Assembly: GCF_015277775.1 (NCBI RefSeq)
Contig: NZ_CP063850.1
Span: 1-55,292, forward strand
From: Paludibaculum fermentans
GTDB lineage: Bacteria; Acidobacteriota; Terriglobia; Bryobacterales; Bryobacteraceae
Direction: 5' to 3'
Length of the DNA: 55,292 nt
Positions 1,857-55,292 of this stretch are shown here, piece by piece. The notes under the pieces are model-generated. The model searched no databases. It saw only the letters and a program-made list of their open reading frames with translations, and was not told where the DNA came from. A program made the translations under genes and the position numbers. Position 1 is the stretch's first letter; every line of letters starts with the position of its first letter.

Positions 1857-1965
1857 TTGTGTAAGTGATTTATAATCAATGGAATACAGCGTTATCACAA
1901 CTCTAACTAGTTTTAATCAGTATTAACACACGCTGCACCGGCCCAGGGGCCGCGCAGCGGTGCCC

Positions 1966-1971
1966 TATACT
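1966..1971 (+). promoter_or_regulatory. Candidate -10 box of the helicase-primase operon
   Basis: TATACT lies 12 bp before the ATG at 1984, immediately downstream of the GCACCG...CGGTGC inverted repeat, which could be an operator. No good -35 is visible. The same TATACT hexamer recurs before genes at 7727, 9932 and 29919. Confidence 0.4.
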
Positions 1972-1983
1972 ACCCGAGGCGTT

Positions 1984-3261
1984 ATGCGTACGTATAGCCT
2001 CGAATCAGAGTTTCTCGACCGGGGTGTGGAACAGAGACTGCTGGCTGCCATTGCCGGCGACTTGAATCTCTACTGGCAACTACAGGATTTGCTGCCCGAA
2101 GGGAGTTTTTGTGTGGAGTCCGCCGCCTGGGCGGAGTTGCGCGACGCGGTGGGCGCCGGCACCACTCCGGCGGAGCCGCAAGTGGAGCCCAGCACCGACC
2201 CGCGGGCCGATGCGGTGCGGTTGGCCGATCTGTACCAGCGCCGCCTGCTGGCCGGCTTGCAGGAGCGTCTGGCCGAAGCGCTGTTCGATGAGACCCGTCC
2301 GGCGGCCGCGGTGGTTGCGCTGCTGGAGGAAGAGGCCGCTTCCGTGCGCTGCCGTGTGCGCGAAACCGCCAGCGGGCTCTCTCTTTCCGGGTGCGGTCTG
2401 CTGGAGGATGCGCTGGCGCTGGCCCGCCAACGCCTGGCGCGCCGCAAAGCCACCGGGAAACCGTGCAGCGGCATCCCAACCGGCCTGGGCCGGCTGGATC
2501 AGATCCTGAACGGCTTCAATGAAGGGTTGCACGTGCTGGCCGCCGGTCCAGGCGTGGGCAAGACTACCATTTGCACGCAGTGGGCCCTGCACGCCGCCGC
2601 CTGCCAGGTGCCGGTGGTGTATGTGACCTATGAGAACTCGCCGCAAAGTCTGGTCCTGAAGATGGTGTGCAGCCGGGCCGGGTTGTCGCCGTCCCAGGTG
2701 GAGCGCGGCTTTGCCGACCTCACCCTGTTGGAAGAGGCCGCCGCCGGGCTGCGCGAGCCGTTGAGCCTGGTGTCGCTAATGGAAGGCACGTCGCAAATGA
2801 CGGTCTCGCAGGTGCGCGGCAAGGCCTTGCAGGCGCGCGACCACGCCGGCTCCGAGCAGGTGCTGATTGTCTTCGACTACCTGCAAAGGGCCGCGCACGG
2901 CAAGGGTTACGAGCAGTTGCGGCATAACGTCTCGGCCATGGCCGGCGAGCTGCGCGAAATGGCCAGCCGCCTGCAATCGCCCGTCATCGCGATCTCGTCG
3001 CAGAATCGCAGCGTCGGCGACTATGGCCGCGGCGGCAGCGCCCAACTGGATTCGCTGAAGGAATCGGGCGACCTGGAGTATGCGGCCGATTCCGTGCTCT
3101 TCCTGACCCAGGCGCGGGAACGCACGGCCACCGAGCCCGCCCGGGCGATCGACCTGGTGGTGGTGAAGAACCGCTTTGGCGGAACGGGGACGGTGCCTCT
3201 GATCTTCCGCCCGGATACGGGCGTGTTTCGCGAAGAGGTTCCGTTGACCAGTGCGCGGTGA
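1984..3261 (+). CDS. DnaB-like (RecA-fold) replicative helicase, plasmid-encoded
   Basis: This 425-residue protein has an N-terminal helical part (to about 150) unlike canonical DnaB, then a DnaB C-terminal ATPase domain opening with GIPTGLGRLDQILNGF. Walker A GPGVGKTT spans 188-195 (Lys193), and Walker B VLIVFDY has Asp298. Later conserved parts are SSQNRS and the ESGDLEYAADS stretch. It should act as a hexameric 5'-3' unwinding motor at the plasmid fork and as the partner of the adjacent primase. I chose ATG 1984, which has GAGG four bases upstream, over an in-frame GTG at 1960. Its end overlaps the primase start by 11 bp, suggesting translational coupling. It directly follows the iteron region, which supports a replication role. 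A RadA/KaiC-like ATPase is a weaker alternative. Confidence 0.85.
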   Translation: MRTYSLESEFLDRGVEQRLLAAIAGDLNLYWQLQDLLPEGSFCVESAAWAELRDAVGAGTTPAEPQVEPSTDPRADAVRLADLYQRRLLAGLQERLAEALFDETRPAAAVVALLEEEAASVRCRVRETASGLSLSGCGLLEDALALARQRLARRKATGKPCSGIPTGLGRLDQILNGFNEGLHVLAAGPGVGKTTICTQWALHAAACQVPVVYVTYENSPQSLVLKMVCSRAGLSPSQVERGFADLTLLEEAAAGLREPLSLVSLMEGTSQMTVSQVRGKALQARDHAGSEQVLIVFDYLQRAAHGKGYEQLRHNVSAMAGELREMASRLQSPVIAISSQNRSVGDYGRGGSAQLDSLKESGDLEYAADSVLFLTQARERTATEPARAIDLVVVKNRFGGTGTVPLIFRPDTGVFREEVPLTSAR

Positions 3262-4216
3262 AACCCTGTCGGCGGCCGAACTGTCCGCCGCCAGGCCGAT
3301 GCGCGGCGAGGGGGGCCGTGTGTTGCGGGCGTTCTGCCCGTTTCATCAGTCGGATACGCAGCGCAGCCTGCGGGTCGACGCCGTCTCCGGACGCTTCTTC
3401 TGCTTCGCGTGCGGAGTGTGGGGGTTTACCGAAGCAGCGCGGGCGGAGTGGACGGCGCAGAAGAAGCAGGAGGGGGCTTCCCTGCCCCGCGGCGGATCTT
3501 CTGCCGGTGCAGCGCCCCGCGCCCGGGTTCTGTTGCCACCGCCGGAACCGGAATTCACCACGGATACCGAAGCGCTGGAGGATTGGATGGCCGCCTACCG
3601 CGAGATGCTGCCGGGCAGCGCGGGTGAAGCGTATCTGGAAAGGCGCGGGATTCCGCTGGCGGTGGCGCAGCGCTGCGGAGTCGGCTACGCCGAGGCCGGC
3701 GAATGGGCGCACCGCGACGAGCGCGGCCGGCCGCTCAGGGACTGGCGTGGCGGCCGGCTGGTCTTTCCGCACACCAGCCCGGACGGACGGCTGGTCAATC
3801 TCTACGGGCGCGCCGTCGGGGACGACGTGCCGAAAGCGTTTCGTCACGATCACTTGGCCGGAGCGAAGGGCTACTTTCTGGGCGCCGGGCTGGCGGGCGG
3901 TTCTGATCAGCCGTTGTATGTCTGTGAAGGCGCGTTTGACGCGCTCAGCCTGCGAGCCGCCGGCCTGGGGCGCGTGGTGGCCATCTTCGGGGTTCATGGG
4001 TGGCGCTGGACGTGGGCCGGCGAGGTGAAGGAGATGGTGTTCGCGCTGGATGCCGATGCGGCCGGCCAGACGGCCTGGCACGCGCTGGCCCGGGCGGCGC
4101 GGCTGCGCGGCAAGCGGGTAGGCTTTCTGCCGCCCGAGGCGTATGGAGGCTGTAAGGATGTGAGTGAGGCGTGGGCCTCCGGGCGGCTGAGCGGGATTGC
4201 GGCGGGGACTCCATGA
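3251..4216 (+). CDS. DnaG-type primase (CHC2 zinc finger plus TOPRIM)
   Basis: This 321-residue protein makes RNA primers for plasmid replication. The N-terminal CHC2 zinc ribbon has Cys29, His32, Cys51 and Cys54 (FCPFH...FCFACG). Next comes the DnaG catalytic-core N-subdomain (AYLERRGIPLAVAQRCGVGY, then GGRLVFPHTSPDGRLVNLYG). The TOPRIM metal site is Glu226 (VCEGAFDAL) and Asp267/Asp269 (LDADAAG). It is about half the length of chromosomal DnaG and lacks the C-terminal helicase-binding domain, as in mobile-element primases. The start is GTG 3251, nested in the helicase 3' end. With the helicase it forms a self-supplied priming unit. Confidence 0.85.
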   Translation: MRGETLSAAELSAARPMRGEGGRVLRAFCPFHQSDTQRSLRVDAVSGRFFCFACGVWGFTEAARAEWTAQKKQEGASLPRGGSSAGAAPRARVLLPPPEPEFTTDTEALEDWMAAYREMLPGSAGEAYLERRGIPLAVAQRCGVGYAEAGEWAHRDERGRPLRDWRGGRLVFPHTSPDGRLVNLYGRAVGDDVPKAFRHDHLAGAKGYFLGAGLAGGSDQPLYVCEGAFDALSLRAAGLGRVVAIFGVHGWRWTWAGEVKEMVFALDADAAGQTAWHALARAARLRGKRVGFLPPEAYGGCKDVSEAWASGRLSGIAAGTP

Positions 4217-4226
4217 GCAGTCTTTC

Positions 4227-4298
4227 TCTTCTAGACATCTAAACATCTAGACAGCTGAGCAGGTGGACAGCTAAACATCTGGACAGTTAAATGGGTGG
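4227..4298 (+). repeat. 8-bp-phased tandem repeat array 1 upstream of parA (candidate centromere)
   Basis: Consecutive octamers from 4235 are ACATCTAA, ACATCTAG, ACAGCTGA, GCAGGTGG, ACAGCTAA, ACATCTGG, ACAGTTAA and ATGGGTGG, with a degenerate unit TCTTCTAG before them. The consensus is ACAKCTRR with no spacers and an unbroken 8-bp phase. Position directly upstream of a small parA matches the centromere/operator of type Ib partition systems, whose ribbon-helix-helix ParB binds short tandem repeats. The function is inferred; the periodicity is seen directly. Confidence 0.8.
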
Positions 4299-4332
4299 AG
4301 GGTATTCTGATGGGTATGAGAGCGCCCCAGTC

Positions 4333-4947
4333 ATGATTCTCACCGTTGCCTCCTTCAAAGGCGGCGTTGGCAAGACGACCACCGCCATTCACCTGGCCGC
4401 CTATTTTGCCCGCCAGGCGCCCACCGTGTTGATTGACGGAGATCCGAACCGCAGTTCAACCTCATGGGCGGCGCGGGGCAAGCCGGAGTTTGAAGTGGCG
4501 CCGGAATCACAGATTGCCATCTATGCGCGCAAGGCGGAGCACCTGATCATCGATACCAAGGCGCGGCCCGATCCGGCCGACCTGCAGGCGCTGGCCAGCG
4601 CCTGCGACCTGCTGATTCTGCCCTGCACTCCGGACCCGTTCGCGCTTGATGCCCTGCTGCTGACGATTGAGGCGCTGCAGACGCTGGGCAACGACCGCTA
4701 CCGCATCCTGCTGACCGTGGTTCCGCCGCGGCCCATGCCGGACGGGGATAATGCCCGCCGGACGCTGATCAATGCCGGGTTGCCGCTGTTTGAGCGGGAC
4801 ATCCGGCGCACCGTCGCGTTTCAGCGGGCGGCGTTGGAGGGCGGCACGGTGGATTCCGTGCGCAACAGCGACTCCGCCGGATTGGCGTGGCTCGACTATG
4901 AGGCTGTGGCCGAGGAAGTGGAGGCTCTGTATGGGAAAAAGGGTTGA
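4333..4947 (+). CDS. parA: ParA-family partition ATPase (type Ib-like)
   Basis: This 204-residue P-loop ATPase is expected to form nucleoid-bound gradients that move plasmid copies. The deviant Walker A KGGVGKTTT is at 9-17, followed by VLIDGDPNRS with the catalytic aspartate. It lacks the N-terminal HTH of type Ia ParA proteins, which fits type Ib (ParF/delta class) together with the next gene. I chose ATG 4333 because MILTVASFKGGVGKTT is the usual family N-terminus; an in-frame ATG at 4291 falls inside the last upstream octamer. The stop overlaps the next gene by 17 bp. Repression by the partner protein at array 1 would be the expected control. Confidence 0.88.
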   Translation: MILTVASFKGGVGKTTTAIHLAAYFARQAPTVLIDGDPNRSSTSWAARGKPEFEVAPESQIAIYARKAEHLIIDTKARPDPADLQALASACDLLILPCTPDPFALDALLLTIEALQTLGNDRYRILLTVVPPRPMPDGDNARRTLINAGLPLFERDIRRTVAFQRAALEGGTVDSVRNSDSAGLAWLDYEAVAEEVEALYGKKG

Positions 4948-5236
4948 TGAACCGAAGGTAAGCCCGTTTGACGCCTTGCGGATTGCGCGATTGGCCAAGG
5001 TAACTCCGGATGTTCAGACGGTTGAACAGCTAGACATTCAAACAGTTAAACAGCCAGATGTCCCAGCCGCCGGACTGGCCAAAAGCCGCGATCCGCGCTA
5101 CGTCAAGTTCACCACCTACATACCGCGCGACATGCACCTGCGGGCCAAGAGCCGCCTGGTGGGCCAGGGCAGGGAACTGAGCGACCTGGTGGCGGAACTG
5201 CTGGATGGCTGGCTGGCTAAACAGGTAGATGGCTAG
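4931..5236 (+). CDS. Ribbon-helix-helix DNA-binding protein, probable ParB/centromere-binding partner
   Basis: This 101-residue protein starts at ATG 4931 inside the parA end. The C-terminal part (about 56-97) reads as a ribbon-helix-helix fold: a strand (YVKFTTYIPRDM), then two helices (HLRAKSRLVGQGRELSDL and VAELLDGWL). The N-terminal 55 residues look flexible. Part of them (about 27-45: PDVQTVEQ, LDIQTVKQ) is encoded by a second octamer array, so the linker itself has an 8-residue rhythm. By analogy with ParG and omega it would bind the 8-bp repeats, seed partition complexes and repress parA. No ParB-type nuclease or CTP-binding domain is present. Assignment rests on fold, size and context. 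Confidence 0.75.
   Translation: MGKRVDEPKVSPFDALRIARLAKVTPDVQTVEQLDIQTVKQPDVPAAGLAKSRDPRYVKFTTYIPRDMHLRAKSRLVGQGRELSDLVAELLDGWLAKQVDG
5010..5065 (+). repeat. 8-bp-phased repeat array 2 inside the RHH gene
   Basis: Seven octamers lie in perfect phase: ATGTTCAG, ACGGTTGA, ACAGCTAG, ACATTCAA, ACAGTTAA, ACAGCCAG and ATGTCCCA. They match the array-1 consensus ACAKCTRR but lie within coding sequence, encoding PDVQTVEQLDIQTVKQPDV. Keeping both reading frame and octamer phase suggests selection on the DNA as well as the protein. Confidence 0.75.
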
Positions 5237-5323
5237 CTGTTTGCCGCGGCTGCTCTCGCACCCTTGGCGCATGTCCTAGCTGTCTAACTGTTCAGATGTC
5301 TAAACATTGAAACATCTACCAGG
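5205..5323. repeat. 8-bp-phased repeat array 3, direct then inverted
   Basis: Forward octamers run over the RHH stop codon: ATGGCTGG, CTGGCTAA, ACAGGTAG, ATGGCTAG (5205-5236). After a gap, the same motif lies in the opposite orientation from 5276: CTAGCTGT, CTAACTGT, TCAGATGT, CTAAACAT, TGAAACAT (to 5315), then CTACCAGG. The inverted block sits just upstream of the HTH gene at 5342 and may be its operator or part of the centromere. Confidence 0.65.
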
Positions 5324-5341
5324 GAAGAATCGAGGCGTCCC

Positions 5342-5884
5342 ATGCCAGCCAGCCCCACCTACGGACACCGCATTCCAGCCGCCCTCGACGCGCTGCGCCG
5401 GTCCACGTGCGAGTGGATCGATCGCCGCCAGTTGGGAGCGCTGCTGGGCGTCTCCAAAACCGTGGCGTGGCGTGTGCTTCGGCACTGCGGCGGCGAGACC
5501 GGGCCCGGCGGGGCTCTCGTTTGCGGCCGCGCGGCGCTGATTGACCGGCTGGAGGAGCTGCGGCGGGAGGGCGGCCCTCTGGATCTCGAGATCCGCCGCC
5601 ACGACCGGTTGGCCGACTTTCTACAGCAGATCCGCCCGCAGGTCCTGGCGCATCTCACGGATGTCGCCAGGGACGAGCAGGCCCTGGAGATGCTCAGCCG
5701 CCGTTTCCAGTCCCTGCCCGCCAATGTCCTGCTCACCCGGTCTAGCCTCCACATCGACTTTTCCGGGCCGAACGAGCTGCTGGAAGCCGTGGGCGCCCTG
5801 ATCTACGCCCTGCATAACGACTTCGAAAGAATCCGCGACTATATCGAACAGGATCCTCAGCGCTCACCCGGCAGAGCGCCCTAA
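5342..5884 (+). CDS. Helix-turn-helix protein of unknown function in the partition/replication region
   Basis: I do not recognise this 180-residue protein. Residues about 24-65 (WIDRRQLGALLGVSKTVAWR, then CGGRAALIDRLEELR-like spacing) look like a winged or MerR-like HTH that picks its site by a recognition helix. The rest is predicted helical (DRLADFLQQIRPQVLAHL) with an acidic, arginine-rich tail. It sits between the octamer arrays and the recombinase and has the inverted octamer block just upstream, so an accessory partition, copy-control or repressor role is possible. ATG 5342 follows a GAAGAATCGAGG purine stretch. Confidence 0.6.
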   Translation: MPASPTYGHRIPAALDALRRSTCEWIDRRQLGALLGVSKTVAWRVLRHCGGETGPGGALVCGRAALIDRLEELRREGGPLDLEIRRHDRLADFLQQIRPQVLAHLTDVARDEQALEMLSRRFQSLPANVLLTRSSLHIDFSGPNELLEAVGALIYALHNDFERIRDYIEQDPQRSPGRAP

Positions 5885-6032: not shown

Positions 6033-7007
6033 ATGAGTCCTGACCGGCCCGCCGAACCTGGGCCGCCTTGGCAGGGCGCGGATCTCCAACCGCTTCAGCC
6101 CGACCTGGCCGCGATCCGCCGCCTGGTGCTCGACGCCGTCTCCAGCCCCACCACCAAGAAGATGTACGCCAAAGCCCTCGACGACTTCTTCGCCTGGTGG
6201 GCAGGGCAGGGCAGACCCGCTTTCGCCCGAGCCAGCGTACAGGCCCACCGCGCCTGGCTAGAGGAGCAGGGCTACAGCCCGTCGACCATCAACCAACGCC
6301 TGGCGGCGCTCCGCAAACTCGCCCGGGAAGCGGCGCTGAACGGGCACCTGGCGTCCGAGGCCGCCGCCGGCGTCACCCAGGTACCGGGCCTCAAGCAGCG
6401 TGGCGCCAGGGCAGGGAACTGGCTCACCCGGGAACAGGCCCAGTTGCTGCTGGACCGCCCCGATCCGGGCACACTGAAAGGCCTCCGCGACCGGGCCATC
6501 CTGGCTCTGCTGCTTGGCTGCGGCCTGCGCCGCGCCGAGGCTACCGGGCTGGACGTCAACTCTATGGAGCAGCGCGACGGCCGCTGGGTCATCCCCGATC
6601 TCCGTGGCAAGCATGGCCGCCTGCGCACGGTCCCCGTGCCCGGCTGGGTCAAGCACACCGTGGATCTGTGGGTGCAGGCGGCGGGCCTGGCCACGGGCCG
6701 TCTGCTGCGCTCGATGAACCGGCACGGCCACCTGAGCGGAGACTCCCTCTCGCCGAATGCCATTCTGTCGCTGGTCAGCGCCTATGGCGCGCAGTTGGGT
6801 GTGAAGCTCCAGGCGCACGACACCCGCCGCACCTGCGCCAAGCTCTGCCGCGCCGCCGGGGGCGAGCTGGAACAGATCCAACTCCTGCTGGGCCACGCCT
6901 CTATCCTGACCACTGAACGCTACCTGGGCACACGGCAGAATCTGGCCGACGCGCCGAACGACCACATGGGCCTGACGGCGGCTCGCGGCGCCACTGCGAC
7001 ATTATAA
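6033..7007 (+). CDS. Tyrosine site-specific recombinase (XerC/D-like integrase)
   Basis: This 324-residue protein has an N-terminal SAM-like core-binding domain (about 30-115: TKKMYAKALDDFFAWWAGQG) followed by the catalytic domain. All catalytic residues are visible: Arg166 (GCGLRRAE), Lys193 (RGKHGRLRTV), His262 and Arg265 (AHDTRR), His288 (LLGHASI) and nucleophile Tyr297 (TTERYLG). The protein cuts and rejoins DNA through a 3'-phosphotyrosine link. The dif-like site upstream and the plasmid setting point to dimer resolution; integration of the element into a chromosome is the other option. Its TAA stop forms part of the inverted repeat before the toxin-antitoxin pair. Confidence 0.9.
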   Translation: MSPDRPAEPGPPWQGADLQPLQPDLAAIRRLVLDAVSSPTTKKMYAKALDDFFAWWAGQGRPAFARASVQAHRAWLEEQGYSPSTINQRLAALRKLAREAALNGHLASEAAAGVTQVPGLKQRGARAGNWLTREQAQLLLDRPDPGTLKGLRDRAILALLLGCGLRRAEATGLDVNSMEQRDGRWVIPDLRGKHGRLRTVPVPGWVKHTVDLWVQAAGLATGRLLRSMNRHGHLSGDSLSPNAILSLVSAYGAQLGVKLQAHDTRRTCAKLCRAAGGELEQIQLLLGHASILTTERYLGTRQNLADAPNDHMGLTAARGATATL

Positions 7008-7035: not shown

Positions 7036-7260
7036 ATGACTGCCCTCAAACTGACTGCCATTGGAACTTCTTCCGGCGTGGTCATCCCCAAGGAAATGCT
7101 CTCGCGGTTGAAGGTGAAGAAGGGGGACACGCTTTACGCCGTGGAGACGGCGGAGGGCTATCTGTTGACGCCTTACGATCCGGCGATCGACGAGCAGCTC
7201 CAGGCCGGCGAGCAGTTCATGCGAGAGTACCGTGACACGTTCAAAGCCCTCGCGAAATGA
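7036..7260 (+). CDS. AbrB/MazE-type antitoxin
   Basis: This 74-residue protein has an N-terminal SpoVT/AbrB swapped-hairpin DNA-binding domain (LTAIGTSSGVVIPKEMLSRL, then VKKGDTLYAVE) and an acidic C-terminal tail (PAIDEQLQAGEQFMREYRD) that would wrap the toxin. It starts at ATG 7036 after AGGAGA and overlaps the toxin by 4 bp (ATGA). It would neutralise the Doc protein downstream and repress the pair through the inverted repeat at 7001-7017. Its job here is post-segregational killing or stabilisation of the plasmid. Confidence 0.88.
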   Translation: MTALKLTAIGTSSGVVIPKEMLSRLKVKKGDTLYAVETAEGYLLTPYDPAIDEQLQAGEQFMREYRDTFKALAK

Positions 7261-7649
7261 AGGCGCCGCCGCGTTGGATCAGCGAGAAGGCGCTGCTCCT
7301 GCTGCATGAGGAGAGCCTGGCCGCTTTTGGCGGTGCCCGCGGTTTGCGGGACCGGGCGATGCTGGAATCCGCGCTGGCCCGCCCGCTGAACACCTACGCC
7401 TACCGGCCCGGTAGCAGCATTGCGGACCTGGCCGCTTCGTATGCCTACGGCCTGGCCAGAAACCATCCCTTTGTGGACGGCAACAAGCGGGCCGCGTTCC
7501 TTTCCCTCGGCGTGTTCCTGGCCCTCAACGGCCTGCGTCTGGCGGCGGACCAGGTGGACGCCATCCAGACGATTCTGGCGGTTGCGGACGGCTCGCTGGA
7601 CGAACAGGGACTGGCTGCCTGGATTCAGCGCAACAGCGTGCCGAGGTAG
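7257..7649 (+). CDS. doc: Doc/Fic-family toxin (death-on-curing)
   Basis: This 130-residue protein has the usual Doc length. The catalytic Fic motif HPFVDGNKRAAF begins at His70; the family Doc consensus HxFx(D/N)GNKR is complete, so the toxin looks active. Doc proteins phosphorylate translation factor EF-Tu; Fic relatives transfer AMP. The SSIADLAASYAYGLARNHPF context is typical of Doc. It is coupled to the antitoxin by an ATGA overlap. With the partition genes and recombinase it forms the stability module at the border between backbone and EPS cargo. Confidence 0.9.
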   Translation: MKAPPRWISEKALLLLHEESLAAFGGARGLRDRAMLESALARPLNTYAYRPGSSIADLAASYAYGLARNHPFVDGNKRAAFLSLGVFLALNGLRLAADQVDAIQTILAVADGSLDEQGLAAWIQRNSVPR

Positions 7650-7691
7650 CCGGCCCAGGGGTGTCCGCTCCGGGCAGTCTGAATTCCACCG

Positions 7692-7702
7692 GATGCTATA
7701 CT
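7692..7702 (+). promoter_or_regulatory. Extended -10 promoter of epsI
   Basis: GATGCTATACT contains an extended -10 (TGCTATACT) 25 bp before the epsI ATG. GGATGC followed closely by TATA-like hexamers recurs at 9846-9858 and 52606-52618. No TTGACA is visible at the right distance. Confidence 0.4.
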
Positions 7703-7726
7703 GAGGGCGCAATCCCCCTACCAGAC

Positions 7727-8392
7727 ATGGCTACCAAACCCTTTTCTTTTCTAGCTCGTCGGGAGTTTCAGGTGATCACCGCGCTGTTGGTGGTACAGGC
7801 CGCCGCGCTCTACGGTCTTTCGCGCAAGGAAATCACCCCGCCGAAGCCGCCGCTGCGGGAGGTTGCGGACAAGTTCCCCGGCGGTTGGGTCAAGGTGCAG
7901 GAAGGTGTGGTCGAGCAGGAAGTAAGGGATGTTCTGCAGGCGGACGATCTACTCAACCGGACCTATGCCGCGCCGGGCAAGGGAGCGGTCAATTTCTTCA
8001 TTGCCGCCTTTGAGACGCAGCGTGACGGCAAGGCGCCCCATTCCCCCAAGAACTGCCTGCCGGGCGCGGGTTGGATGCCGCTGATTTTCGATCGTCCGGA
8101 GGTCACGATTCCCGGCGAGGCCGCGCCCATCTCCATCAACCGTTACGTCATTCAGAAGGGCAGCAGCCAGTCCATTGTTCTCTACTGGTACCAGGCGCAT
8201 AACCGCGTTGTGGCCAGCGAATACGCCGCAAAAATCTACCTGGTTCTCGATGCCATCCGGTATAACCGCTCCGATACCGCCCTGGTCCGGGTAGTAGCGG
8301 ATGCTTCCGACGGGAACACGGAAGAGGCTACCCGGAGGGCGCTGGATTTCGTCCGGGCGAGCTACCCGCAGCTCAAGCCGTTCATGCCTTAA
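7727..8392 (+). CDS. epsI: EpsI, exosortase-associated protein (DUF3485)
   Basis: This 221-residue protein has one N-terminal membrane segment (about 13-31: QVITALLVVQAAALYGL) and an extracytoplasmic domain with the EpsI pattern: GGWVKVQEG, FFIAAFETQRDGKAPHSPKNCLPGAGW, and the conserved YWYQAHNRVVASEY. EpsI proteins accompany EpsH/exosortase in EPS loci and are sometimes fused to it. Their biochemical role is not settled; a cysteine (NCLPG) and surrounding histidine are conserved. Here it is separate from the exosortase (51547-52476): about 45 kb away linearly but about 10.5 kb if the molecule is circular. I chose ATG 7727 over 7661 because of the promoter at 7692 and the signal-anchor position. 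Confidence 0.85.
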   Translation: MATKPFSFLARREFQVITALLVVQAAALYGLSRKEITPPKPPLREVADKFPGGWVKVQEGVVEQEVRDVLQADDLLNRTYAAPGKGAVNFFIAAFETQRDGKAPHSPKNCLPGAGWMPLIFDRPEVTIPGEAAPISINRYVIQKGSSQSIVLYWYQAHNRVVASEYAAKIYLVLDAIRYNRSDTALVRVVADASDGNTEEATRRALDFVRASYPQLKPFMP

Positions 8393-8412: not shown

Positions 8413-9744
8413 CTACAGCCGGTGGATCTTGTCGGACTGAATTCCCTTTAACGCGTTGCGTGTGTCGACGATCAGGCGCGCTTTCTCCACCACAGCGGCG
8501 TAATCCAGGTTGGAGTGATTGGTGATGATCACCACGCAGTCGGCCGCGGCCAGCGTCTCGTCGCTGTCATCGCTGGTGAACGTCTTCCCTTCCAGCACCA
8601 GAGAACCAACGAAAGGATCGCTGTAGGTGACCCGGGCGCCGCGCTTCTCCAGCAGGTGTATGACATCGAGCGCGGGCGATTCCCGCATGTCGTCGATATC
8701 CTTCTTGTACGCCACGCCGAGAATGTGCAGATGCGAACCGCGCAGGGGCTTGGTCACCTCATTGAGCACGTCCTGGATCTTGTCGGTGACAAACTGCGGC
8801 ATCTGGCCGTTGATGTAGCCGGCCAGTTCGATGAAGCGCGCTTCGATGCCGGACTGTTTGGTCTTCCAGGACAGGTAGAACGGATCGATGGGGATGCAGT
8901 GCCCGCCCAGGCCCGGCCCGGGATAGAACGGCATGAATCCAAACGGCTTGGTGGCCGCCGCGTCGATGATTTCCCAGACATCGATGTTCATCCGGTTGCA
9001 CATGATGGCCAACTCGTTCACCAGCGCGATATTGATCATGCGGAAGGTGTTTTCGAGCAGTTTCACCATCTCCGCCACGCGTGTGGAGCTCACCGGCACG
9101 ACGTGCTCCAGCGCCTGGCTGTAGAACAGGGCGCCGATCTCGGTGCAGGTGGGCGTGATGCCGCCCACGACCTTGGGAATGTTCCTGGTCTGGAATTGCG
9201 GGTTGCCGGGGTCCACGCGCTCCGGTGAGAAGCACAGGAAGAAGTTCTGGCCCACCTTCAGTCCGGTGGCTTCAAAGATGGGCAGCAGCAACTCATCGGT
9301 GGTGCCGGGATACGTGGTCGACTCGAGGATCACCAGGATGCCCGGATGGGCGTGGCGCGCCACCTCCTGCGCGGCGGAGACCACATAGCTCATGTCCGGG
9401 TCTTTCGTCTTGCGCAAGGGCGTGGGCACGGCGATGTTGACGGTGTCGAGCGTGGCGATGGCGGCGAAATCCGTGGTCGCCGAAAGGCGGCCGGCCTCCA
9501 CCAGGGCGCGCACCTCCTCGCCCGGCACGTCCTGTATGTAGCTGATGCCCTTGTTGAGGCTATCTACCTTTGATTGAGAGACATCAATGCCAACTACGGT
9601 GAAGCCTGCCTTGGCATATTCAACGGCCAGGGGCAGGCCGACATAACCTAACCCAACGACGCAGACCCGTGCGGCTTTGGAGGAAATACGCTGCTTCAAC
9701 TCCTCTGGGGAAGTGGGGGGGGTATATGTTGTTGTCAAAGGCAT
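8413..9744 (-). CDS. Nucleotide-sugar dehydrogenase (UDP-GlcNAc/UDP-ManNAc 6-dehydrogenase type)
   Basis: This 443-residue protein oxidises the C6 of a UDP-sugar to the uronic acid using two NAD+. The Rossmann motif is GLGYVGLPL (31-39). The central substrate helix follows, then catalytic Cys283 in GPGLGGHCIPIDP. The C-terminal UDP-binding domain has GVAYKKDIDDMRESPALD. The FMPFYPGPGLGGHCIPID form is closer to WbpA/WecC (N-acetylhexosamine) enzymes than to UDP-glucose dehydrogenase, which agrees with the wecB gene at 525. I chose the internal ATG at 9744 (MPLTTTY) because a start at 9789 adds 15 unconserved residues. It is transcribed divergently from the outer-membrane gene at 9932. Confidence 0.92.
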   Translation of the reverse strand: MPLTTTYTPPTSPEELKQRISSKAARVCVVGLGYVGLPLAVEYAKAGFTVVGIDVSQSKVDSLNKGISYIQDVPGEEVRALVEAGRLSATTDFAAIATLDTVNIAVPTPLRKTKDPDMSYVVSAAQEVARHAHPGILVILESTTYPGTTDELLLPIFEATGLKVGQNFFLCFSPERVDPGNPQFQTRNIPKVVGGITPTCTEIGALFYSQALEHVVPVSSTRVAEMVKLLENTFRMINIALVNELAIMCNRMNIDVWEIIDAAATKPFGFMPFYPGPGLGGHCIPIDPFYLSWKTKQSGIEARFIELAGYINGQMPQFVTDKIQDVLNEVTKPLRGSHLHILGVAYKKDIDDMRESPALDVIHLLEKRGARVTYSDPFVGSLVLEGKTFTSDDSDETLAAADCVVIITNHSNLDYAAVVEKARLIVDTRNALKGIQSDKIHRL

Positions 9745-9845
9745 GTAAAGTTCTGGGCTCGGCGGCCGCCACGAGTCATAGCATAGCAAGGTGCGAAATG
9801 AGGGTACACTGCGGGCTCAGTCATAGCGGAGAGCCGGCGCGCTCA

Positions 9846-53778: not shown

Positions 53779-55292
53779 TTGTCCCGTCACGCCAACAAAA
53801 CAGGAAAGCCGCCGGCGCCGCCCCGCGCCTATCATGCCCTGCTTAGCGGCGAGCCGGCCCGCGTCTTCCTGCTGCCGGATCAGTACCCCACCCCGCCGGC
53901 GCTTCGCCAGGCCGAAGCCCAACGCCTGCAGGCAGCCATCCCGGCCGGCGATTCCCTGCTCTCCCGCCGCCTGCATGTGTACCTGCACGGCAACCTGCAA
54001 CTGCTGCTCGGCATCGCCTCCCGCCGCGCCGCTCCGCTGATCTACGAGGCCGGCAACGACGCGCTCGCCGCCGCCACCCAAAGACCCGCCTACATCCAGC
54101 GTCTCTCCCAGGAGATGCAGGGCATCCTCGCCAGCTGGATTCTGGCCGAGTTTCTCACTGCCGCCGGGCCGGACCGCCTCGCCGAAGCCATCGTCACCGA
54201 ATGCGGCGGCATGTGGCGCGATGAGAGCGTCTTTGCCCGCCTGACGCCGGTGCTGCTCCACCTTCACTCCCACACCATCGCCTGGTTCCTGCTGGAGGAA
54301 CTCGGCCTGCCGGTCGAACGGGAGTTGCTCCAATCCGAGATCAAGCACGGCGCCACCATCCCGGCGCGCCGCCTCAAGGTGGACCTTCGCGAAAAGTACC
54401 TCTCCGTCATGAGTGCCGGCCACTACCAGGCCCTGCGCGAAGCGCTCGCCCTGAATCTGTTCGAGAAGAATCCGGATTCGCCCTGGCCCACCGCGCAACT
54501 CAACAAGGGCGCCGCCAAGGGCCAGGCCCAACTGATTCCAGTCGAGTACGATAGCCAGGCCTTCCTGCCGCCCGAGATGCATGAGGAGATGATTGGCCGC
54601 ATGTGGCAGCAGCGCCTGGAGTTAAGCGACGCCGACGCCGACGTTCTGGACATGCTCAGCGACCTGTGGCTGAAACAGGCCCGTACGCCGAACGACCCCG
54701 GCACCGCCGACGTCGATCAACTGCTGGAAATGCGCGCCCTGAAACCCAAGACCGGCGCCGGCGGCCGCCCCAGCGGCTACCGCACCGAGCAGCGTCAGCA
54801 GCTCTATCAGGCCCTGCACCGCCTCTCCAGCCTGTGGATCAACATGAGCCGCGTGGAAAGCTACCAGGCCAGCAACGCGGCAGGCCGCCGCCGGCGCACC
54901 TTCCACGAAGTGCAGAGCCGAGCCTTCGTCATCACCGACGTCAGCGGCGAACGGCGCTTTGACGGCTCCAACTTCGAGCTGCAGCACTTCCTTTTCCGTC
55001 CCGGCGCCGTCTTTGGCCAGTTTCTCTTCGGCCCCGGCCGGCAGACGGCCCTGCTCTCGGCCCGCGCCGTGGAATACGACCCCTACCGCCAGGACGTCGA
55101 AAAGCGCCTCGCCCGCTATCTGAGCTGGCAGTGGCGCGTACAGGCCGCCCAGGGGTCCTACAGGCGTCCGTTTAAGGTGCGCACGCTGCTCGAGGCCTGC
55201 GGCTACGAGATCGATAGCGACCATCCCAGCCGCACCCGGGAGCGCCTGGAAAAGGGCCCTCGACAACCCCTCGCCAGCGATCAATCATCGAA
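53779..55292 (+). CDS. Plasmid replication initiator-like protein, N-terminal part (runs off window; continues at base 1)
   Basis: The frame is open from TTG 53779 (only possible start, AGGGGGG just upstream) to the window end, about 504 residues. I do not recognise the N-terminal 240 residues (LHVYLHGNLQLLLGIASRRA; WILAEFLTAAG). The middle looks like a winged-helix replication protein (DADVLDMLSDLWLKQART; GYRTEQRQQLYQALHRLSSL), followed by SARAVEYDPYRQDVEKRLAR and YLSWQWRVQAA, a pattern I associate with Rep initiators. Reading across the ends needs one extra base near 55283 (GATCAA then ATCATCGAA) to give IIESWQWDDYNED. Two minus-strand open frames cover the same DNA but lack family features. 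Rep identity is inferred from structure and from the nearby iterons, helicase, primase and partition genes. Confidence 0.6.
   Translation, partial: MSRHANKTGKPPAPPRAYHALLSGEPARVFLLPDQYPTPPALRQAEAQRLQAAIPAGDSLLSRRLHVYLHGNLQLLLGIASRRAAPLIYEAGNDALAAATQRPAYIQRLSQEMQGILASWILAEFLTAAGPDRLAEAIVTECGGMWRDESVFARLTPVLLHLHSHTIAWFLLEELGLPVERELLQSEIKHGATIPARRLKVDLREKYLSVMSAGHYQALREALALNLFEKNPDSPWPTAQLNKGAAKGQAQLIPVEYDSQAFLPPEMHEEMIGRMWQQRLELSDADADVLDMLSDLWLKQARTPNDPGTADVDQLLEMRALKPKTGAGGRPSGYRTEQRQQLYQALHRLSSLWINMSRVESYQASNAAGRRRRTFHEVQSRAFVITDVSGERRFDGSNFELQHFLFRPGAVFGQFLFGPGRQTALLSARAVEYDPYRQDVEKRLARYLSWQWRVQAAQGSYRRPFKVRTLLEACGYEIDSDHPSRTRERLEKGPRQPLASDQSS

Follow-up and report, generated by a model that had tools for sequence, protein, structure and literature searches.

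We consider it highly likely that the locus described here serves type Ib partition on a plasmid, itself very probably circular, and that dimers of its RHH protein occupy tandem octamers as parS. The locus lies in a window of 55,292 nucleotides, which is the whole stretch of DNA analyzed. Its assignment as type Ib (ParF/ParG-like) follows from three observations: the arrays of octamers accompany an RHH partner, their units share a common register, and the letters of the boxes co-vary with the RHH beta-strand. In kind the locus is ordinary, a functional-looking type Ib centromere; what sets it apart is an array lying within the RHH gene, together with a comparative rule for the boxes.

The contig and its par genes

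The window is the entire second contig of its genome (55,292 b), the other contig comprising 9,476,802 b. When the ends of the contig are joined, reading-frame pieces across the junction look, by eye, like a protein of 625 aa from the related locus L074, and the contig is therefore very probably a circular plasmid. The plasmid reading also draws on the fact that this is a separate, whole contig whose DnaB-like, primase, ParA and RHH genes have counterparts on plasmid pF-183-1 of Bryobacterales bacterium F-183 (53% identity over a partial match, 52%, 75% and 53%, respectively). The tyrosine recombinases of the two are only 26% alike. The features to which we refer are as follows.

1960-3261: DnaB-like helicase
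3251-4216: Toprim primase
4233..4296, + strand: array 1, upstream of parA, with eight 8-bp boxes when read in the symmetric frame
4280..4308, + strand: promoter-like match TGGACA - 17 - TATTCT, overlapping the end of array 1 (consensus match only)
4333..4947, + strand: parA, 204 aa, small deviant-Walker ATPase without an N-terminal DNA-binding domain (start chosen by homologs)
4931..5236, + strand: RHH gene, 101 aa, directly downstream of parA with a 17-nt overlap
5008..5063, + strand: array 2, seven boxes within the RHH gene, encoding a low-confidence linker (about residues 26-45)
5203..5242, + strand: array 3, five boxes spanning the RHH gene's 3' end together with its stop codon
5278..5317, + strand: array 4, five boxes (three reverse, two forward) located 3' of the RHH gene and ahead of the following gene
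5342-5884: uncharacterised gene, 180 aa, directly 3' of array 4
6033-7007: tyrosine recombinase
7036-7649: MazE-type antitoxin and Fic/Doc-family protein

In profile comparison the two par proteins match the ParF/ParG pair. ParA begins MILTVASFKGGVGKTTTA, has the deviant Walker A motif and lacks the N-terminal DNA-binding domain; a profile of 16 relatives matches 3cwq (E 2.4e-98) and then TP228 ParF (4dzz, E 1.4e-15). The PDB matches of the RHH profile, built from 43 relatives, include 9kkd (E 8.7e-6), ParG (E 0.0032) and omega (E 0.77-0.9). At E<=0.1, Pfam RHH_1 is found in 14, RHH_5 in 12 and ParG in 12 of these 43 sequences, and the RHH protein of the window itself matches only Pfam ParG, with an E of 0.023 that is below the curated cut-off. 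Its structure model has an N-terminal helix at residues 12-22 and a confident RHH part at about 57-100, with helices at 66-79 and 83-100; residues 21-50 have a mean pLDDT of 48-61. Phe13 is conserved in at least 90% of the 43 sequences. A Foldseek search with the RHH monomer model gave no significant match.

Four arrays of 8-bp boxes

The arrays are real. Array 1 reads, box by box, AGACATCT AAACATCT AGACAGCT GAGCAGGT GGACAGCT AAACATCT GGACAGTT AAATGGGT, and a scan of periods 5-24 places the window's highest period-8 identity at 4222-4228. Using a matrix built from array 1 alone and scanned over both strands in four-unit runs, we found that every one of the 22 best listed runs on the 55-kb contig comes from 4227-5323. 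Across the four arrays, top runs range from 24.7 to 42.1 bits, as against 12.3 bits for the best run in a chromosome sample of 400 kb (20 stretches of 20 kb each, or about 4% of its length). When the 3' part of the RHH gene is recoded synonymously, the matrix score of the array there is equalled in 23 of 5000 trials, and its period-8 identity in 10 of 5000. A genome-wide dispersed octamer repeat was also considered but found no support: a DNA search of the window's own genome gave four other matches of 14-24 bases, all with E 7.2, and the 400-kb sample gave none.

The original prediction had placed contiguous octamers at 4235-4298, 5010-5065, 5205-5236 and 5276-5315, and they are found at every one of these places, with eight, seven, four and five units, respectively. 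It counted three arrays, however, where there are four. The array that it ended at 5236 is correctly located but extends beyond the stop codon to 5242, and the last array, described as inverted, does have three reverse units, but two forward units follow them in the same 8-bp register (5278-5317). Arrays 2 and 3 also contain reverse units in the symmetric frame.

The octamer period and the RHH partner

Is the 8-bp spacing a property of related loci? We compared 93 loci: 80 from species genomes (the best 80 of 344 relatives), 12 from plasmid records (chosen for spread from the 40 rows listed) and the window. In each, the strongest of periods 5-20 was determined in the 250 bases before parA and in the bases 151-400 after the parA match, the latter including the 3' part of the RHH gene. 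Of the testable loci, 67 of 91 have 8 or 16 as their best period upstream and 40 of 89 downstream, as do 8 of 88 in a control region located 950-1200 bases upstream. A profile of 27 RHH sequences identified an RHH partner in 74 loci (72, plus two in long frames), and the period goes with this partner. With RHH, 64 of 74 loci have 8 or 16 as their best upstream period, versus 3 of 17 without (Fisher p 8e-8), one of these 17, L116, ending 139 bases after the parA match, so that a partner could not be seen. Likewise, the downstream counts are 39 of 71 versus 1 of 18 (p 1e-4), and an upstream z8>3 is found in 43 of 74 versus 0 of 17 (p 4e-6), all three p values ignoring kinship among loci that are not phylogenetically independent. 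Some of the loci without RHH have a ParB-like partner, for example L111 (by eye).

Ten of the 74 RHH loci do not have 8 or 16 as their best period upstream (L056, L057, L058, L084, L086, L091, L097, L100, L103 and L115). Two of them, L057 (Synechocystis pSYSM) and L058 (Granulicella), show no clear 8-bp arrays; by eye, scattered GCGTACGC-like sequences surround their parA. Could these be a dispersed form of the same box?

In viral contigs the signal is weaker than in the main set: among the 11 loci with at least 38% identity, taken from 80 listed, the best period is 8 or 16 upstream in five and downstream in six. Two of the viral-contig loci, L152 and L153, have z8 values of 5.0 and 4.5 upstream of parA, and the profile found no RHH protein there, which may reflect either a divergent partner or a different reader. 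Nine distant ParA loci, with 28-46% identity, were picked from 60 listed rows, and six of them have a best upstream period of 8 or 16. Since the distant loci that show an 8-bp period include two with an annotated ParG, L233 and L236, the spacing seems to be a trait of ParG-like type Ib systems more widely. Locus L232, on Sandaracinus plasmid pSa001, carries an almost perfect, GCTCACAG-like 8-bp array (z8 9.3) and a match to the RHH profile (E 4.6e-5).

Box symmetry and the RHH beta-strand

In frames starting at 4233, 5008, 5203 and 5278, which were chosen after inspection, all 25 units of the window have a pyrimidine-purine centre (CA in 14, TG in 10, CG in one) and 21 of the 25 read RR....YY; the consensus is ARAYRKYT. 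Among the seven other frames, only the half-unit shift comes close on the pyrimidine-purine centre (23 of 25), which symmetry of an array makes inevitable. Stretches in which at least four of five units fit RRNYRNYY are limited to the four arrays on the contig, and the 400-kb chromosome sample contains no box arrays either as matrix runs or as RRNYRNYY stretches. The symmetry is approximate: in a strict Watson-Crick test of array 1 both sham pairings scored higher, and it is therefore kept only at the level of purines and pyrimidines. A strict palindrome in the window is not supported by this comparison. Across relatives, period-8 identity of the upstream array reaches 50% or more in 45 loci, the window being one of them; in-phase base complementarity best explains 39 of these arrays, with 15 expected (p 2e-13), and the sham pairings are best in three and three.

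The beta-strand is the base-contacting part of RHH proteins. We grouped the loci into class A, with the beta-strand Q[VI][TS][AI]Y (33 loci), and class B, with R[TA]T[IVLF]Y (20 loci), and found that box letters co-vary with the strand. With 136 tetramers tested and kinship among loci ignored in the p values, ACAT occurs 19.7 times per 1000 in class B versus 6.6 in class A (p 9e-8), and ATAC 2.1 versus 9.4 times (p 5e-6). In parA coding sequence there is no class difference of this kind in ACAT or ATAC. The co-variation also holds between contigs of one host, in two assemblies that each carry class A and class B apart from one another: L083 and L141 have 2 versus 8 ACAT/ATGT and 16 versus 0 GTAC-type tetramers, and L085 and L120 have 4 versus 11 and 14 versus 1. 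For L092 and L115, which are not a clean A/B pair, the counts are 1 versus 10 and 2 versus 1.

Forward and reverse units lie in a common register in 171 of 216 pairs in class B, 70 of 102 in class A and 6 of 6 in the window, compared with 3 of 14 in parA coding sequence, although near-symmetric boxes match both orientation patterns and these counts are therefore not independent. For the same reason, the RHH protein should bind near-symmetric boxes in either orientation, so that mixed orientation means little.

An array inside the RHH gene

Array 2 is a minority feature among relatives, yet a recurring one. None of 5000 synonymous recodings reaches its observed matrix score, and 28 of 5000 do so by period-8 identity alone; by a generic, fixed symmetric score its p is 0.018. 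By this symmetric score, 5 of 68 RHH genes contain an array at p<=0.01 and 8 of 68 at p<=0.05, as against 0 of 74 parA controls at 0.05. The array lies ahead of the RHH part in L115, L136 and L144 (p<=0.01), as well as in the window (0.018) and L074 (0.025), and after the RHH domain in L146 and L117 (p<=0.01). In a test of period only, period 8 stands out in 4 of 68 RHH genes at p<=0.01 and in 11 of 68 at 0.05; the corresponding numbers of genes are 1 and 6 for period 7, 1 and 1 for period 10, and 0 and 1 for period 11. Upstream of its parA, L115 has no outstanding 8-bp period (the best is 20), and its coding array may therefore be a main one.

We propose that array 2 would be double-coding, serving as linker-encoding and centromere DNA at once. 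Intragenic sites as such are not new, given that those of the archaeal RHH segregation protein SegB are described as palindromic and mostly intragenic (PMC12284271). In the open-licence literature searched, we found no report of a box array inside the linker of an RHH gene, of a symmetric octamer rule across phyla with its beta-strand match, or of an octamer parS in cyanobacterial or acidobacterial plasmids.

Proposed mechanism and alternatives

How might these elements work together? The octamers are very probably RHH dimer sites, judging from sequence comparison. We propose that the RHH protein dimerizes and that its two-stranded beta-ribbon would enter the major groove of a single, roughly two-fold symmetric 8-bp box of the type RRNYRNYY, centered on its YR step. 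Neighboring dimers would then lie side by side on successive boxes of the contiguous arrays flanking and inside the operon and so form the partition complex, and the arrays would constitute the plasmid centromere (parS). Beyond the disordered linker, the N-terminal tail of the RHH protein would, like the flexible arginine-finger tail of type Ib systems, contact ParA and stimulate its ATPase, and the action of ParA would spread the plasmid copies across the nucleoid. The sequences show the anatomy, the array statistics, the association with RHH, the common register and the co-variation; that the protein binds, with a single dimer on each box, activates ParA and stabilizes the plasmid is what we infer. 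Comparison lends good support to the core of the original prediction, a centromere of type Ib-like kind that the RHH protein would read, probably with one dimer per octamer: the arrays accompany the RHH partner, their letters follow the beta-strand, and the profiles match ParF/ParG.

Since array 1 overlaps a promoter-like site, it may also regulate the operon, and is probably the operator of an autoregulated par promoter, for which this site is the candidate (one match in 4150-5400, with 0.3 expected in shuffles). Are the arrays then operators only? An alternative, which we judge unlikely, holds that they serve autoregulation of the par operon and control of the downstream gene, the true centromere being elsewhere or one array only. 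The overlap of array 1 with the sole promoter-like match and the position of array 4 just ahead of the next gene (5342-5884) would suit such a role, but arrays 2 and 3 lie inside a gene, the downstream period of 8 or 16 recurs in 39 of 71 RHH loci, and no other box runs are present on the contig by the criteria used. Moreover, operator and centromere roles are not mutually exclusive.

Tandem repeats near replication genes may also be iterons; enterococcal pAD1, for example, has 8-bp iterons. That the octamers are replication iterons bound by a Rep protein is nevertheless very improbable, because they accompany the RHH partner and its beta-strand, and because a separate 22-bp repeat is present at 1791-1850, as are 21-23 bp repeats near rep genes in L058, L061 and L066. 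Least likely of all is neutral slippage of simple sequence with no function: eight-letter units can expand in this way, but by the criteria used such runs are absent from the rest of the contig and from the 400-kb chromosome sample, and the arrays recur beside parA, mostly with an RHH partner, in contigs titled to several phyla.

Comparison with known systems

The partition-locus reading has a close published parallel. In the type Ib system of pESBL (IncI), octamers GATAACAA lie on both flanks in direct and inverted orientation, and EMSA suggests one ParB per octamer (PMC7602700). Compared by layout, pESBL and the window both have a ParA, a protein of about 100 aa (ParB in pESBL) and octamers of mixed orientation upstream and downstream; they differ in the octamer itself (GATAACAA versus ARAYRKYT), and an array inside parB is not mentioned in the accessible text of that report (PMC7602700). 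An octamer centromere of mixed orientation is therefore not new, and the earlier view of mixed-orientation octamers as unusual finds no support: the 8-bp period is found with ParG in L233 and L236 as well, and the heptads of pSM19035 are also mixed in orientation (PMC9499535).

The pSM19035 delta/omega system resembles the window in its contiguous short repeats, mixed orientation, several arrays and, for pSM19035 itself, one RHH dimer per repeat, with at least four contiguous units needed for full ATPase activation (PMC9499535). Its unit, however, is a non-palindromic 7-bp sequence, whereas the window has period 8, and the omega profile match is poor (the E of 0.77-0.9 given above). TP228 resembles the window in its proteins, ParF being the closest ParA profile match after 3cwq and ParG being matched by the RHH profile. 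The parH arrays on which TP228 ParG acts are described as degenerate tetramer boxes with AT-rich spacers, unlike the contiguous octamers of the window (PMC7308502, PMC5016525).

Similarity of the boxes extends beyond partition systems, as the tandem 8-letter palindromic MET-boxes AGACGTCT described for MetJ fit the window consensus ARAYRKYT (PMC4239095). MetJ differs in being a repressor of methionine genes rather than a partition protein, and no MetJ chain is among the nine PDB matches of the RHH profile up to E 10, nor is MetJ among 25 of the 30 Pfam families listed for the RHH set. It is, like the small protein of the window, an RHH protein.

A broader joint reading is that the RRNYRNYY rule holds in ParG-like centromeres across many phyla, that a beta-strand code sets the letters and that the centromere has grown into the RHH gene. 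We put this forward tentatively, as possible but somewhat more likely to fail in one of its parts than to hold in all. If it is true, the letters of a box depend on a small number of beta-strand residues, and plasmid compatibility could be predicted from this RHH-to-octamer code; the RHH linker of certain lineages would then be written by centromere boxes. The letters of parS vary from one plasmid to another, which makes these sites difficult to locate. A symmetric frame of fixed 8-bp length together with a beta-strand rule would make centromeres predictable from sequence in many uncharacterised plasmids of Cyanobacteria, Acidobacteria and others, and perhaps partition-based incompatibility as well. 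The linker array, in turn, offers a testable case of DNA that is possibly both centromere and coding.

Neighboring genes

Finally, we note several features outside the par locus. The 625-aa protein of L074 is encoded at 1034-2911 on the minus strand, and a protein that resembles it by eye is split over several frames at 1-354 and 54693-55292 of the window, reflecting either a disrupted gene or sequencing errors. The repeat at 1791-1850 comprises 2.7 copies of a 22-bp unit with an 11-bp sub-period ahead of the DnaB-like gene, and its copies are candidate replication iterons; the rep genes near the 21-23 bp repeats of L058, L061 and L066 are annotated or likely ones. Searches of Pfam (E<=0.01), NCBIfam, PHROG and PLSDB (tblastn) gave no match that would make the gene at 5342-5884 a known partner. 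The MazE/Fic pair at 7036-7649 is possibly a second plasmid stability module. Likewise, a UDP-GlcNAc 2-epimerase gene, a DUF3485 gene and, by eye, a UDP-sugar dehydrogenase-like gene lie at 525-1676, 7661-8392 and 8413-9789, respectively, and polysaccharide genes thus seem to be located on the plasmid.
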